Source: Chloroflexota bacterium (GTDB lineage: Bacteria > Chloroflexota > Anaerolineae > Anaerolineales > UBA11858). Taken from it: a stretch of 32,937 nucleotides of DNA. The position numbers and the translations under genes were made by a program. Position 1 is the stretch's first letter. Each line of letters begins with the position of its first letter. Shown piece by piece: positions 13,481 to 19,527 of the stretch. The notes under the pieces were generated by a model. The model was not told the DNA's origin. It saw only the letters and a list, made by a program, of their open reading frames with translations, and did not search any database. The DNA lies in the NCBI GenBank assembly GCA_011039385.1, contig DRBO01000032.1, positions 1 through 32,937 of the forward strand, in the 5' to 3' direction.

Positions 13481-16468
13481 TTAAGGTTTCACCACTTTCC
13501 CGGAACGCTTTCTGCCGTTGGCAATCACTGTCAGCGGCTCTTTTGTGCCAACATGGCGGAAGTAAGTGGTTTCTGCTTTGGCTGGCAGCCCTTCCAGCCA
13601 ATCCCAATCCAGGAAATCGCTCTCGGAGTTGTATTTGATGTAAAAATAGGGAATGCCAGCCGAGGAGATATTATGGAAAAAATGGCTGCCCTGGGAATGG
13701 TCCACCTGGAAATCCTCCAGATCAACCTCCATGATTACCCGGGCTCCATTGATATCCGACCAGATCACGGGAACGCCCAGATGTCTTTCACAGGTCCCCC
13801 ACCGGCCCGGCCCGATCAGAATATAAGGTTTTTCACTCTCGGCCAGACTGCGGTTCAGGACTCTAATTTCATCAACCATCTCCAGCGTTTTGGTGAGGTC
13901 GAAATCTCCTGGTTTGACATAGATGATATCCTGAATATCCTGGATCGACCGGTGGCCGGACACCACCGAGGAAGAGGCCAGCAGGCGCTCCTCCGGAACA
14001 TCCACATCATCAATCAACAGGCTTTCTTCGTGCTCCAGGAATGGCCGCAGCTGCAGCAGCCGGAAGGTGGATACTTTATCTTTCTCGCTGGAAATATTGC
14101 CTGCGAATTCCACTTCCACCGGACAGCCCATGGCTTCTTCACCGATCTGCAGCACTCGATTGATGATGCCAGCCAGCGGGAAAGTATTGAATTTCAATTG
14201 GCGATTGAAGGTGATTACAGGGGCGCCGGTCTTTTCATCCCAAAAACCGCTGTTCAATCGGCCTCCCTGGGGGTCATAGGTATCAGCAATTTCGGTGAGT
14301 GTTCCATCCTCAATGGCATCCCGCAGCGAACAGCTTAACATGAAATTGGATTCGCCTTTTTCCGGATCGATCTCCTTCTGCTGAAAAAGGTCGATCGCGA
14401 AGAAGCTGCTCTGACTGCTCTTGATCACATCCTCCACACTGCCATAGATATTCACATCAGGGCGCTTGGGGCTGAAGCGACGCGACATTCCACCCTGAAC
14501 GACTGTTTTGCCCAGACCGAGTGCCGTAAAGGCAATCCGGTCCTCCGGCTGAAGGTGATTGCCAAGAGGATAATAATTGTAGGAGGATGCCGTGCCTGAA
14601 AAAGTGGGGTAATAGCGATTCCCATGGGTCTCACCAACCACCTCCTGGATAACCACCGCCATGCGTGGCTCTCCCAGGGAGATGCCCAGCGTCTCAGCAT
14701 AGGAACGGGCCAGTTCCAGATAAGCAGAGGCATAAACCAATTTGATGGCCGATACCAGCTGCTCGAGGCGGACTTCCAAATCGGCGTGACTGTTGGGCAG
14801 CATATAAGTCGCAAAGACACCCGCAAAGGGCTGGAAAATGGAATCCTCGAAAATGTTCGAGGAGCGGACAGCCAGCGGGCGGGTCTTGTCCCTATAAATG
14901 TAGCGCAGGTCTTCCCACAAGGCATCAGCTATCCGGCTCTGCAAAAAACGCTCTTTGATTTCGCTATCGGAATGGTTCTCCGCGACGTAATCGTTGAGGT
15001 CGTTTTCCCGCATGAATTGGTCAAATTCGTCTGTGCCGATGACGACTGTTTTCGGGACCTGGATGTCCACTTCCGGAAACTCTTTTCTGAAACCTTCCGT
15101 AAAAGAGCTCCTCAGGAAAAGCAGAAACGCCAACCCCCTGCCCTTGCCTCCCAGGGATCCCGGGCGGAGGCGGATGAAGCGGGAATAGGAGTGGTAATTA
15201 TCGCGGTCAAAATCAATAATGATCCCCATGCGCTCCTGGAGGATATCTTCCACGGAAGCCAGGATCAGCTGCCGCAAATCTTCCTTGTTCTCATAGGCGG
15301 ATACTTTATGGGGTTTAAGCTGGCGGGCAACCTCAAATTCTCCTCTGGCTGCCATCCAACCAGAAAAATGGTCATTCCGGGCGTGGTAGACAAAGGATTC
15401 CAGAGGAATTTTTTCCAGCTCTTCCCGCAACTCATAAAGTGTCTCCGCCATGCCGACGATCCTCTCATCCGGCATCCGGAACGTGAAGCAGCCAAATCCC
15501 ATATACTCCATCATAAATGTCCGCAGATCATGCAGCAGAGAGCGGCTGTTCTTATTGACGAAAAAGGTCTGCAGTCGTTCTGACTGGGCCCGGTTATTCT
15601 CTTTACTGGATTGCAACATCACCGGCAGTGTGGGCGATTTCTGGCGGACTTTCTCCACCAGGAAAAATCCGGCGTCTTCCACCAATTCCCCTCCCCTGGG
15701 AAAACGGATGTCACTGATCATGCCCAGCAGGTTGTCCTGATACATTCGATAATACTCACTGGCTTCCTCGTATGTGCGGGCCAGCAGGATCTTGGGCCGG
15801 GAGCGCATTTGCAGCAGGGAAAGATAATCATTGGCTCCTTCTGAGATCAACCGCTGGGTCTGCATCATGATCTCAGAGTAAAGCACCGGCAGATAGAGGG
15901 AATAAAATCGGATCGAATCCTCTACCACGATGATTACCCGGACATCCCCGATCTGAATGTCCGCATCCACATTCATACGGTCTTCTAACAGTTTAATAAT
16001 GGCCACAAAGACTGTAGAATTGCCGTTCCAGATAAAAGTGTGGTCAATCTGGCTGTTTGCCAAAGCTGTAGAAGACAGATACTGAAGCTCAGAGGAATTG
16101 TTAAGCAGGAGCACAACCGGGATATCCTGGACGGTCTTGACCTGCTCAGCAAACTTCAAAGGGTTGATCTCCCCCAGCCTGCGCATGGTGATCACCAGAT
16201 CGAACTGGCGTTCCTCCAGCATCTCCAGGGCCCGGGGAACCGAAGTTGCCCGGAGGATATGCGGCAAGGTGCGCAGGTTAAGATTATGAAATTCCTCAAA
16301 AATCTGGTCTGACAGCCGCGCATCCTCCTCAATAATAAAGGAGTCATACGTGCTGGATACGAGCAGAATACTGTTGATGCGGTTCTGCATCAAATAGCGG
16401 TAGGTTTGATATTTGGGACGGTATTCCAGCTGGTAGCTACCAGCCGGATGGGAAGTGGATGGTGTCAT
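13481..16468 (-). CDS. Receiver-domain / PPDK-type ATP-grasp fusion protein, unknown activity
   Basis: 995-residue soluble protein. Residues about 30-165 are a receiver-like fold lacking the acidic phosphoacceptor. Residues about 176-320 form a second receiver with the expected residues: Glu183/Asp184, Asp253 (SDIRFP), Ser287 and Lys306. Residues about 430-810 match the ATP-binding domain of pyruvate phosphate dikinase/PEP synthase: GSLGGKGRGLAFL (438-450), AVRSSNIFEDSIFQPFAG (533-550), VVIQEVVG (605-612) and the closing LLQLRP (804-809). The swivelling phosphohistidine domain and PEP/pyruvate barrel are missing; instead there is a 185-residue tail containing ILIGPGRWGT and SQGSHFFHN. The start at 16468 (ATG, GAGGG close upstream) is preferred to a TTG at 16477. 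It should not be annotated as PEP synthase. Confidence 0.85.
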   Translation of the reverse strand: MTPSTSHPAGSYQLEYRPKYQTYRYLMQNRINSILLVSSTYDSFIIEEDARLSDQIFEEFHNLNLRTLPHILRATSVPRALEMLEERQFDLVITMRRLGEINPLKFAEQVKTVQDIPVVLLLNNSSELQYLSSTALANSQIDHTFIWNGNSTVFVAIIKLLEDRMNVDADIQIGDVRVIIVVEDSIRFYSLYLPVLYSEIMMQTQRLISEGANDYLSLLQMRSRPKILLARTYEEASEYYRMYQDNLLGMISDIRFPRGGELVEDAGFFLVEKVRQKSPTLPVMLQSSKENNRAQSERLQTFFVNKNSRSLLHDLRTFMMEYMGFGCFTFRMPDERIVGMAETLYELREELEKIPLESFVYHARNDHFSGWMAARGEFEVARQLKPHKVSAYENKEDLRQLILASVEDILQERMGIIIDFDRDNYHSYSRFIRLRPGSLGGKGRGLAFLLFLRSSFTEGFRKEFPEVDIQVPKTVVIGTDEFDQFMRENDLNDYVAENHSDSEIKERFLQSRIADALWEDLRYIYRDKTRPLAVRSSNIFEDSIFQPFAGVFATYMLPNSHADLEVRLEQLVSAIKLVYASAYLELARSYAETLGISLGEPRMAVVIQEVVGETHGNRYYPTFSGTASSYNYYPLGNHLQPEDRIAFTALGLGKTVVQGGMSRRFSPKRPDVNIYGSVEDVIKSSQSSFFAIDLFQQKEIDPEKGESNFMLSCSLRDAIEDGTLTEIADTYDPQGGRLNSGFWDEKTGAPVITFNRQLKFNTFPLAGIINRVLQIGEEAMGCPVEVEFAGNISSEKDKVSTFRLLQLRPFLEHEESLLIDDVDVPEERLLASSSVVSGHRSIQDIQDIIYVKPGDFDLTKTLEMVDEIRVLNRSLAESEKPYILIGPGRWGTCERHLGVPVIWSDINGARVIMEVDLEDFQVDHSQGSHFFHNISSAGIPYFYIKYNSESDFLDWDWLEGLPAKAETTYFRHVGTKEPLTVIANGRKRSGKVVKP

Positions 16469-16477
16469 ATCCCTCAA

Positions 16478-16830
16478 CGGGTAAGTTCTCCTAGATTATA
16501 TCGTAACCCGGACCTCTGTGGGCATCGTACACACCAGCCCTGTGCTGAGTTAACTATTTCCCTGAAAACCATTCCCGATCCCTAAACCTGAGTGTTTTAT
16601 CCTTAGCTTGGTTCCATTCGTCCGCTCCACGCTTCAAAAGCTGAATCGCCCGCCTGTAAAGGAGGCGTAAGTTCAAGTTTATGGGAACCGGTAGAGAATT
16701 CAGCAGCCGATCCTCTTTTTTTAATAATTTCTCCACGTCCTCTTAATAGTTTCTAAATATGTCCCTGCTACACTGGTAGCAGATCCTCTTAACCAAACCG
16801 TTGAGCGAGTTAAACTACAAGGAGTAAATG
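16478..16830. other. Divergent intergenic region with regulatory repeats
   Basis: About 350 bp between the minus-strand ATP-grasp fusion gene and the plus-strand small secreted protein. It contains the 11-bp direct-repeat array described separately, and the inverted repeat CTGCTAC-ACTG-GTAGCAG at 16765-16782 that overlaps the putative -10. A 60-codon minus frame starting with GTG at 16736 lies inside it and is doubtful. Confidence 0.6.
16727..16774 (+). promoter_or_regulatory. 11-bp direct-repeat operator with abutting -10 hexamer
   Basis: Consecutive 11-mers ATTTCTCCACG, TCCTCTTAATA, GTTTCTAAATA and TGTCCCTGCTA; the first three share CT at the same offset. The array runs straight into TACACT (16769-16774), a -10-like hexamer, and no -35 match is present. 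OmpR/PhoB-family regulators bind direct repeats of 10-11 bp that replace the -35. A matching array lies upstream of macA (23956-24014). A further TCCTCTTAA copy is at 16784-16792. Confidence 0.5.
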
Positions 16831-17304
16831 ATGAAACCAATTTACAAAACCATTCTGATCGGAGCTCTCGTTATCGGCGCCTTAGGGATAGGTGCCATTG
16901 GGATTGCCTATGCGCAAGGAGATGTGCCCTTCCCCCGGGAAACGCTGGCGAACTTGTTGGGGCTGGATCGCGAAGAACTACACGATCAGCTCCAGTCCGG
17001 TAAAACCATCCAGATGCTGGCTGATGATGCTGGAGTGGACCTGGAAGAATTCCGTACGGAAATGGAAGCCAACCGGCAGGAGGAAATGCGGGCCAGGATC
17101 GAGGAAGCCCTTGCCGATGGAAAGATCTCTCAAGACCAGTCTGACTGGCTGCTGGAAGGCCTAGAAAAGGGCTATCTGTTCGGTCCTTTCTTCAGACCTG
17201 GAGGACGTGATTTAATGCAAGATGGAAGAAAATCCGGCGCTAACGGGGAAAGATTATCAGGCCTACGGGGCGGGAATTTCATCCCAGATCAGCAGCAACG
17301 GTAG
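16831..17304 (+). CDS. Small secreted protein next to two-component system
   Basis: 157-residue exported protein. A signal peptide covers residues 1-28 (basic start, Gly/Ile-rich core, AYA then QG as the likely cleavage site). The mature part is acidic and helical: LANLLGLDREELHDQLQSGKTIQMLADDAGVDLEEF resembles the repeat seen in DUF2680/YckD-type secreted proteins, followed by ISQDQSDWLLEGLEKG and a glycine-rich tail. AAGGAG lies 6 nt before ATG 16831; the ATG at 16828 is too close to it. It precedes a response regulator and kinase and could be an extracytoplasmic ligand or accessory of the sensor, as CpxP/Spy are for CpxA; this role is inferred from position only. Confidence 0.8.
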   Translation: MKPIYKTILIGALVIGALGIGAIGIAYAQGDVPFPRETLANLLGLDREELHDQLQSGKTIQMLADDAGVDLEEFRTEMEANRQEEMRARIEEALADGKISQDQSDWLLEGLEKGYLFGPFFRPGGRDLMQDGRKSGANGERLSGLRGGNFIPDQQQR

Positions 17305-17330
17305 CATTCTCCCAATTCTTTCCCCCCAAT

Positions 17331-17362
17331 GAGAGCCGGACCTTGAAGCCTGTCCGGCTCTC
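17331..17362 (+). other. Perfect 11-bp hairpin without T-run
   Basis: GAGAGCCGGAC (17331-17341) and GTCCGGCTCTC (17352-17362) around a 10-nt loop, in the 111-bp gap between the small secreted protein and the response regulator. No T-run follows on either strand, so it is not a classic terminator. It may protect the upstream mRNA end or weaken read-through, allowing unequal expression. Confidence 0.6.
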
Positions 17363-17384
17363 TCAACATAAGCATGGATACCGG

Positions 17385-17390
17385 TATAAT
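17385..17390 (+). promoter_or_regulatory. Possible internal -10 element before the response regulator
   Basis: A consensus TATAAT lies 25 nt before the ATG at 17416. The -35 position (around 17362-17367, CTCAAC) is poor. The two-component genes may have a second promoter just after the hairpin. Confidence 0.35.
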
Positions 17391-17415
17391 TCTTACAGGT
17401 AACTATTGAGGAACT

Positions 17416-18108
17416 ATGGTAAAAAAAATTCTGGTAGTGGATGACAATCCCGATATCGTTAACATGCTCAAGGCTTATTTGAGCGGGGAAGGCTTCCAGG
17501 TTGTGACAGCCTCCAATGGGCAGAAAGCCCTCCACGTCGCCCGCAGTGAAAAACCAGACTGCATCGTTCTGGATATGATGATGCCGAAAATGAGAGGAGA
17601 TGAATTCATCCGGGTCTATTCAGCTGAATCGGATACGCCTATTCTGGTTTTGACTGCCAAAGTGGACGAAACTGACAAGGTCCTGGGACTTGAGTTGGGC
17701 GCAGACGATTATGTCACTAAACCTTTCAGTCCTCGGGAGCTCTCAGCACGGATCAAAGCACTCATCAGGCGCTCTGTAAAAAGTCAGACGGAGTCAGAGA
17801 TCTATCGATCTGCAGACATTACCCTGGATAAGCTGGGCCATCTTGTGGAGATCGCTGGACAGCCGGTAGATCTCACCCCCTCCGAATTTGATCTGCTGGC
17901 GGTTTTGATCTCAACTCCAGGCAGGACTTACAGCCGGACGGAATTGCTGGAAAGCCTGGGTGAATCCACTTACCTGGAAAGTTTTGATCGCACGGTGGAT
18001 GTGCACATTCATAATTTGCGTGAGAAAATCGAGCCCGATCCCGCCAATCCCATCTATATCCAGACAGTCTATGGTACCGGCTATCGCTTTGCGCGGGAAA
18101 GGAAATAA
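17416..18108 (+). CDS. OmpR-family response regulator
   Basis: 230-residue regulator. The receiver domain (1-120) has Asp9/Asp10, phosphoacceptor Asp53 (VLDMMMP), Thr80 and Lys102 (KPFSP). The C-terminal winged helix (about 130-228) has DLTPSEFDLLAVL, the recognition-helix region SFDRTVDVHIHNLREKI and the closing YGTGYRFA wing. GAGGAA gives the ribosome binding site. It is followed after 6 nt by the sensor kinase, its likely partner. Its binding sites may be the 11-bp repeats at 16727-16774 and 23956-24014. Confidence 0.95.
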   Translation: MVKKILVVDDNPDIVNMLKAYLSGEGFQVVTASNGQKALHVARSEKPDCIVLDMMMPKMRGDEFIRVYSAESDTPILVLTAKVDETDKVLGLELGADDYVTKPFSPRELSARIKALIRRSVKSQTESEIYRSADITLDKLGHLVEIAGQPVDLTPSEFDLLAVLISTPGRTYSRTELLESLGESTYLESFDRTVDVHIHNLREKIEPDPANPIYIQTVYGTGYRFARERK

Positions 18109-18114
18109 AATCAC

Positions 18115-19527
18115 ATGCGTTCAATAAGCCTGAAAATCATCCTGGTCCTGGTTGTTGTCAGCCTGGTGGGGGCCCTGTTCACTGCCTTCTACATTCAATC
18201 CCGGACCAGGAACGCTTTTGATACCTATATAAAAAACCAGGAACAGCTAGCGCTTGCAGATCTGCTTACCGAGCACTATCAGGAGTATGCTTCCTGGGGC
18301 AACGCAAAACAAATATTCTTGGAATTTTACAGGATCAGGTCTCCAGGCTTTTCTGGAGGGGGCACCCAGAGTAAGAATCCTAATCGGCAGGGTGATAACC
18401 AGCCTCCTCCCCCCTTTGTGCTGGCCGATCAAGAAGGGATTGTCCTGTTTGGGGGCACAAACCACATTGGATTTCAAATCGGAGATCAAATCACCGCGAA
18501 AGACCTCCAAAACAGTCTGGCGCTGGAAATCGATGGGGTGGTCGAAGGTTGGCTGGTCCCGGTTCCGATCTCCCCCAACCGCAACAGCATGCAGCAGACT
18601 TTCCTGGGGACTGTGCAGCAGGGCTTGATCATCAGCTCCCTGGTAACCCTGCTGATCGCTCTGGTATTGGGAGGGATCCTGATCATCTCATTCACCCGGC
18701 CAATCCGCAAACTGGCGGATGGCACTGAAAGGATTGCCAGCGGTGAGCTGGGCTACCAGGTAGAGATCGAATCCGGCGATGAGCTGGGCAGATTAGCGAC
18801 CTCGTTCAATAACATGAGCACGGATCTGCAAAAGGCTGATCGGCTCCGCAAACAAATGACAGCAGATATCGCCCACGACTTGCGCTCTCCTCTGAGCATC
18901 TTGCACGGCTACACAGAAGCCATGAGTGAGGGAAAGATGGCCGGCAGCCCTGAAATCTACCAGGCTATGCATCAGCAAACCAGGCATCTAAACTACTTGA
19001 TAGAGGACCTGCGAACCCTGTCACTGCTGGATTCAGAAGAGTTGAATTTCCAGCTTGAAGATATCGATCCCGCCAGAATACTCACCCAAACCCAGACCGC
19101 CTTTACCCCCCTGGCTGCCAGTGAGGATCTCACCCTAACCCTGGAACTTGAGGAAAATCTTCCCCGGGTCACCCTGGACCCAGGCAGGCTAACCCAGATA
19201 CTGGGAAATTTGATCAATAACGCCATTAATATCCTGCCAACAGGTGGAAATATCTGGCTGAAAGCCTGGCAGGAGGTGGGAGACCTGGTAATTGAAGTCA
19301 AGGATGATGGGCCGGGGATATCCAAACAAGACCTGCCCCTGATCTTCAACCGCCATTATAAGATCGATCCATCCCGGAGCCAGGATCAGGGGTCTTCGGG
19401 GCTCGGGCTGGCGATCACTAAAAAATTAGTAGAAGCTCAGGGGGGAAAAATTGAGGTGACTAGTGAGCTCGGGCAAGGAACTACTTTCCGGGTTTTGTTC
19501 CCGGTAAAAGAGACTAAGTCCTTTTAA
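18115..19527 (+). CDS. HAMP-domain sensor histidine kinase
   Basis: 470-residue membrane kinase. TM1 lies at about 7-26, an external sensing region at 27-170, TM2 at about 171-193 and HAMP at 194-246. HisKA has DIAHDLRSPLS (phosphorylated His254). The ATPase domain carries the N box (NLINNAINILPTGG), the G1 box (DDGPGIS) and the G2 box (GSSGLGLAITKKLVEAQGG). The external domain has a short Gly/Asn/Pro-rich insert near 79-100. Its last residues (KETKSF) are encoded by the left arm of the terminator hairpin at 19510-19540, so coding sequence and terminator overlap. Confidence 0.95.
   Translation: MRSISLKIILVLVVVSLVGALFTAFYIQSRTRNAFDTYIKNQEQLALADLLTEHYQEYASWGNAKQIFLEFYRIRSPGFSGGGTQSKNPNRQGDNQPPPPFVLADQEGIVLFGGTNHIGFQIGDQITAKDLQNSLALEIDGVVEGWLVPVPISPNRNSMQQTFLGTVQQGLIISSLVTLLIALVLGGILIISFTRPIRKLADGTERIASGELGYQVEIESGDELGRLATSFNNMSTDLQKADRLRKQMTADIAHDLRSPLSILHGYTEAMSEGKMAGSPEIYQAMHQQTRHLNYLIEDLRTLSLLDSEELNFQLEDIDPARILTQTQTAFTPLAASEDLTLTLELEENLPRVTLDPGRLTQILGNLINNAINILPTGGNIWLKAWQEVGDLVIEVKDDGPGISKQDLPLIFNRHYKIDPSRSQDQGSSGLGLAITKKLVEAQGGKIEVTSELGQGTTFRVLFPVKETKSF

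Follow-up and report, generated by a model that had tools for sequence, protein, structure and literature searches.

Enzymes that carry an ATP-grasp domain of the pyruvate phosphate dikinase (PPDK) type transfer phosphate from ATP to a histidine on a swivelling domain, and from there to an acceptor on a third domain (PMC4844700, PMC12167813). In rifampin phosphotransferase (RPH), Lys 22 and Arg 117 of the ATP site are required for resistance (PMC4844700). The swivelling domains are marked by the motif T/SxxGGxxxH (PMC12167813). Proteins in which a receiver is paired with a PPDK domain have already appeared in published censuses which, in the portions available, record the domain pair alone and give neither the tail, nor a link to glutamate dehydrogenase (GDH), nor a function. 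As far as those portions go, the published fusion very likely belongs to the same family as the protein described here (Heimdallarchaeota as outgroup; many Bacteroidota copies). GarA and OdhI are FHA-domain proteins. GarA/OdhI and PknG control GDH and 2-oxoglutarate dehydrogenase in Actinobacteria, and they are a possible analogue, with phosphorylation-dependent control at the 2-oxoglutarate/glutamate node. Unlike that system, to which the present protein is unrelated, the ATP-using enzyme is here often encoded beside GDH. Finally, Baggio and Morrison reportedly observed in 1996 that GDH activity in Bacteroides thetaiotaomicron is influenced by one or more trans-acting genes located downstream of gdhA.

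The gene investigated here lies on the minus strand at positions 13,481-16,468 of the window, which is the whole stretch of 32,937 nucleotides that was analyzed from a Chloroflexota genome. It begins with an ATG at 16,468 and encodes 995 amino acid residues. The plus-strand frame over the same positions contains several stops; the original prediction had the coordinates right and did not mention the minus strand. With Met 1 at 16,468, the residues that it had numbered in the second receiver (Glu 183, Asp 184, Asp 253, Ser 287, and Lys 306) are all in place. A TTG at 16,477 is an alternative start that would lead to 998 residues, and an AGGAG located ∼10 bases 5' of it is a better fit to a ribosome-binding site for this start than for the ATG (positions 16,468-16,500, minus strand). 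Orthologues with amino acid sequence identities of 63-79% in seven other genomes of the genus, and the 554 or more relatives that a single scan gave, place the receiver/PPDK_N gene far beyond chance. Three kinds of homologue were distinguished, namely the REC-type, a short REC-less type (∼580 residues, ATP-grasp domain and tail), and a type of ∼800 residues. No relative was found on viral contigs, and a sequence search of the PDB gave weak receiver matches and nothing else. The whole-chain AlphaFold2 model, calculated with a 66-sequence alignment, has a pLDDT of 86.8 and a pTM of 0.80. Its domains run in the order receiver (residues 30-164), receiver (residues 176-327), helical linker, ATP-grasp domain, and tail.

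The first receiver (15,977-16,381, minus strand, as for all features of the gene) is degenerate. Its Pfam Response_reg match at residues 51-124, with an E-value of 4.2e-6, falls under the curated cut-off, and its fold is that of the PorX receiver with a Z-score of 14.6. Positions 93-96 read I/T/M/R such that the phospho-acceptor aspartate is missing. The second receiver (15,488-15,943) matches the ComE receiver with a Z-score of 15.2 and contains everything expected of a response regulator: the acidic pair, the aspartate, the Ser/Thr, and the lysine. Among 66 relatives Glu 183, Ser 287, and Lys 306 are invariant, Asp 253 is conserved in 64, and Asp 184 in 62. These residues are also retained in a set of 44 homologues of the REC-type that was assembled by similarity. 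Asp 253 (codon 15,710-15,712) is, on the basis of this conservation, the predicted phospho-acceptor. The earlier description of one degenerate receiver followed by one with all phosphorylation residues was thus accurate. A helical segment resembling DUF5752 (residues 341-409; 15,242-15,448) connects the receivers to the ATP-grasp domain. The match to PF19027 has an E-value of 0.0054 in this protein and 1.5e-8 at best, and is seen in eight of nine family members. DUF5752 was dropped as a pointer to function, the matches being too few and uninformative.

The ATP-grasp domain (residues 429-815; 14,024-15,184) is recognized by Pfam as PPDK_N at residues 438-814 with an E-value of 1.1e-34. Its best structural match is RPH with a Z-score of 26.8, and HpeI gives 18.9. 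As in PPDK and PEP synthase, the ATP site displays a lysine, an arginine, a glutamate, and a glutamine. Lys 442, Arg 535, Glu 787, and Gln 806 are found without exception in the homologues whose sequences cover these positions (44 of the REC-type, 10 short, and 33 of ∼800 residues). From a reading of the motifs, Lys 442 and Arg 535 appear to be the counterparts of Lys 22 and Arg 117 in RPH. The domain ends, as the original prediction had it, in LLQLRP (residues 804-809).

What follows LLQLRP is a tail of ∼180 residues (residues 816-995; 13,484-14,023) containing the segments ILIGPGRWGT and SQGSHFFHN. It had been described as novel, and the phosphohistidine domain as absent. The predicted structure suggests that both statements are probably wrong. 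A separate AlphaFold2 model of residues 816-995 has a pLDDT of 91.5 and a pTM of 0.89. In a second look at this model with VIA-align, carrier domains of the PPDK/Enzyme I type or a relative occupy all of the top ten rows with Z-scores of 6.1-7.1, values of ∼7 being under the tool's line of 8 and no higher than chance arrangements can give; the next row, at 5.7, is unrelated. The best match is the isolated PPDK carrier domain 2fm4 (Z-score 7.1, 115 of 128 residues). The others include PPDKs (5jvl and 1vbg among them), EIN-Ntr, and 2e28, a pyruvate kinase with an extra C-terminal domain related to the carrier fold. Superposition of the full model onto PEP synthase (2ols) aligns residues 419-995 with 4-466 and puts the tail at the place of the swivelling domain. 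Likewise, residues 429-995 superimpose onto 7-510 of PPDK (1dik) and onto 7-866 of RPH (5hv3), in each case with the tail included, and the alignments to 2ols, 1dik, 1kbl, and 5hv3 all reach residue 994 or 995.

Carrier domains display a strand-loop-TSH-helix arrangement. In the AlphaFold2 model His 929 (codon 13,682-13,684), the proposed phosphohistidine, is the first residue of a helix formed by residues 929-936 and is preceded by a strand formed by residues 909-915. It is a histidine in 83 of the 83 homologues with sequence at this site, which span the REC-type, the short type, and the type of ∼800 residues. Because the genome scan by motif selects for HFF and so biases the counts, that number is taken from homologues drawn by similarity, for which the motif was not selected. 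His 932 is replaced by Gln, Arg, or Tyr in most relatives and was rejected as the phosphate acceptor. The original prediction had proposed either histidine as a possible acceptor; the first is invariant and the second is unlikely to be essential. The tail also harbors the motif GPGRWG (residues 886-891; 13,796-13,813), in which Arg 889 is invariant.

At the level of sequence the resemblance to carriers does not extend as far. No Pfam family matches the tail, and none of 66 tails matches PF00391 at E-values up to 10. Comparisons of several tail sets with PPDK swivel/carrier sets by hhalign gave no significant score (probability 0.5%), the histidines being paired in only three of nine set combinations. 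A Foldseek search with the tail against the PDB and viral models returned nothing significant. The motif T/SxxGGxxxH is missing, and the residues leading up to and including His 929 are QVDHSQGSH. That the tail belongs to no sequence family and has no significant Foldseek match would suit the earlier reading, in which it is a new domain with a catalytic or acceptor role and has no kinship to the swivelling domain. With carriers filling the ten best structural rows, with the PEP synthase and PPDK superpositions extending through the tail, and with a helix that begins exactly at the invariant histidine, such a reading is decidedly unlikely. The tail is more reasonably viewed as a highly diverged swivelling phosphohistidine domain, an assignment that is probable rather than proven because the Z-scores are below 8, the profile comparison fails, and T/SxxGGxxxH is missing. 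Structure prediction of the tail thus gave a mostly swivel-like answer with respect to fold, and not with respect to sequence.

Beyond the tail there is nothing. No Pfam match to the C-terminal PEP/pyruvate-binding domain was obtained at E-values up to 1, and the tail ends the chain, as had been anticipated. Like PPDK and PEP synthase, the protein contains an ATP-grasp domain followed, by predicted fold, by a swivelling domain; unlike them, its PEP/pyruvate domain is absent and its swivel sequence is unrecognizable. In combining an ATP-grasp domain with a putative phosphohistidine domain and, presumably, a non-pyruvate acceptor, it resembles RPH and the two-component dikinases HpeHI, CreHI, and PpsAB. 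It differs from these in its N-terminal receivers, in the missing T/SxxGGxxxH, and in having no dedicated acceptor-binding domain, since the tail follows directly after residue ∼815. Without a third domain of its own, the protein should find its acceptor outside the chain.

A candidate emerged from the neighboring genes. A motif scan of species genomes gave at least 554 loci with relatives, the best 80 of which were used for clustering of the neighbors; these 80 represent well over twelve bacterial and archaeal phyla. One neighbor recurred, a Glu/Leu/Phe/Val dehydrogenase found at 33 of these 80 loci, nearly always as the next gene; many of the loci without it have incomplete flanks. Copies drawn by similarity, for which a distance limit of 1.5 kb was applied, agree with those drawn by motif: GDH is within 1.5 kb in seven of eight copies from the class of the source organism and, for the REC-type copies of Bacteroidota, in 20 of 26. 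The usual order in Bacteroidota is GDH followed, after a short gap and in the same orientation, by the REC-type gene, and often a second GDH thereafter. In Parabacteroides distasonis the annotated gdhA adjoins the gene in divergent orientation. GDH is next door in two of three Heimdallarchaeota, the nearest outgroup. The homologues of ∼800 residues from the class provide an internal control, with GDH within 1.5 kb in none of 21. This linkage was missed in the original prediction, and a literature search found no published link of the family to GDH in openly available papers; in contrast to the receiver-PPDK fusion, it is new here.

The short, REC-less homologue follows a different type of GDH in seven of eight cases, the eighth having an incomplete flank. 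These proteins bear on one alternative, a closed relay in which phosphate would pass from ATP to His 929 and on to Asp 253 of the same chain, creating a self-phosphorylating switch that binds GDH. The chain does have the parts for such a relay: its receiver and its ATP-grasp domain are both intact, its histidine is invariant, and an acceptor domain is absent. The short homologues, however, keep the core and adjoin GDH, so the core needs no receiver in the same chain, and the relay is very unlikely.

Other arrangements were observed as well. On a different contig of the source genome, a REC-less homologue of 582 residues (locus L002, 1462-3207) adjoins a second GDH gene, and a homologue of 1058 residues fused to a C-terminal nucleotidyltransferase domain (locus L003, 487-3660) lies by the same GDH. 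Similar pairs occur in two further genomes of the genus. REC-type genes form adjacent tandem pairs at five loci. Genes for a 2-oxoacid:ferredoxin oxidoreductase are located upstream at four Marinifilaceae loci, and a glutamate-synthase-like gene of 526 residues is upstream at five Desulfobacterales loci. These last neighbors point to the 2-oxoglutarate/glutamate node generally.

They also fit a second alternative, namely that the protein is a receiver-gated kinase or ligase for a small molecule (glutamate, 2-oxoglutarate, or a derivative) which sits beside GDH and leaves the GDH protein unmodified. In this case 2-oxoglutarate may be the common metabolite. Characterized dikinases do act on small molecules, including rifampin (PMC4844700) and phenolic compounds (PMC12167813). 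Those enzymes have a substrate-binding domain, whereas here none separates the ATP-grasp domain from the tail and none follows C-terminally, and the small-molecule reading is considered unlikely.

The linkage to GDH extends to gene content. Among 151 genomes of the class, the REC-type gene and a gdhA-type GDH (60-71% identity) occur together in nine, and neither occurs in the remaining 142. Among the 21 genomes of the family, eight have both and 13 have neither. Fisher p-values, which ignore the kinship of the genomes, are 1e-14 and 5e-6, respectively. Adjacency has been lost in the source genus: GDH is within 1.5 kb in none of seven relatives, the gdhA-type GDH of the source genome is on a contig other than that of the gene, and no GDH gene is present in the 32,937 nucleotides of the window. 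Because the genes appear unlinked in the genus, co-occurrence in the family is not a by-product of adjacency. The four genomes with the short form, the source genome included, have a second GDH, and three without it that were compared with the GDH family have one.

Within the genus the gene is flanked by mscS on one side and by a response regulator and a histidine kinase on the other. A search for an operon partner in the window was unsuccessful, the gene standing alone. It is convergent with mscS and divergent from a plus-strand group (16,828-19,527) composed of a small exported-looking open reading frame, an OmpR-type response regulator, and a HAMP histidine kinase. At least five relatives within the genus retain the OmpR-type regulator beside the gene, and for that reason the neighboring kinase might act on the second receiver.

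Many copies of the gene are found in Bacteroidota. In the phylogenetic tree, the proteins of the source genus group with those of Heimdallarchaeota (seven rows, support 100). The Chloroflexota genus, represented by the window and three further loci, and the three Heimdallarchaeota loci are sister groups, which suggests gene transfer between archaea and bacteria. REC-type proteins of the source class occupy three separate places in the tree, suggesting horizontal transfer.

Taken with its anatomy, the linkage makes GDH, or a molecule bound to GDH, the leading candidate for the acceptor. We infer a stripped-down dikinase, that is, a receiver-gated ATP-to-histidine phosphotransferase serving GDH, and regard this as a possibility falling only a little short of probable. 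The failure of sequence comparison for the tail, the position of the gene away from GDH in the source genus, and those relatives that have 2-oxoacid:ferredoxin oxidoreductase or glutamate-synthase genes as neighbors in place of GDH count against it. The ATP-grasp domain would phosphorylate His 929 on the diverged swivelling domain, turning ATP into AMP in the manner of PPDK, PEP synthase, and RPH. The phosphate would then be handed to a separate partner, most likely the gdhA-type GDH or a molecule that GDH binds. The activity would be switched through phosphorylation of Asp 253, the degenerate first receiver would be structural, and the outcome would be an adjusted flux at the 2-oxoglutarate/glutamate node. 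The original prediction of a phosphorylation-controlled, ATP-dependent phosphotransferase with a self-phosphorylated histidine in its tail agrees with the anatomy and the conservation; its premise that a swivelling domain is lacking does not hold up well.

A different role for the same parts would be that of an ATP/ADP-sensing scaffold, with His 929 structural or metal-binding and GDH regulated by contact only, as with GarA/OdhI. The unconserved swivel motif and the lack of detectable sequence homology to carriers are in keeping with a scaffold, and control by contact, acting on glutamate metabolism and on 2-oxoglutarate dehydrogenase, does exist in Actinobacteria (GarA/OdhI). Full conservation of the residues that match the PPDK/RPH ATP site by motif suggests catalysis instead, and the scaffold is judged quite unlikely.

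The gene accompanies the gdhA-type GDH so consistently that it most likely controls the synthesis of glutamate from ammonia in the organisms that carry the two. In most GDH-flanked Bacteroidota copies it is directly downstream of GDH on the same strand. The trans-acting gene or genes of B. thetaiotaomicron are, by report, downstream of gdhA, and we hypothesize that these belong to the present family. The most far-reaching version, in which a dikinase-type enzyme passes phosphate via His 929 to GDH, constitutes a widespread bacterial and archaeal control of ammonia assimilation, and is the product behind the Bacteroides report, must be called rather unlikely as a whole. The linkage and co-occurrence with GDH nevertheless give a receiver-PPDK fusion known only from censuses a testable function at a central step of ammonia assimilation, in organisms that include gut Bacteroidota, Asgard archaea, and members of many uncultured phyla. 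If GDH is the acceptor, the enzyme would be a member of the dikinase superfamily that has no built-in acceptor domain and acts on a protein, and its gene would be a candidate for the trans-acting Bacteroides genes of 1996 downstream of gdhA.
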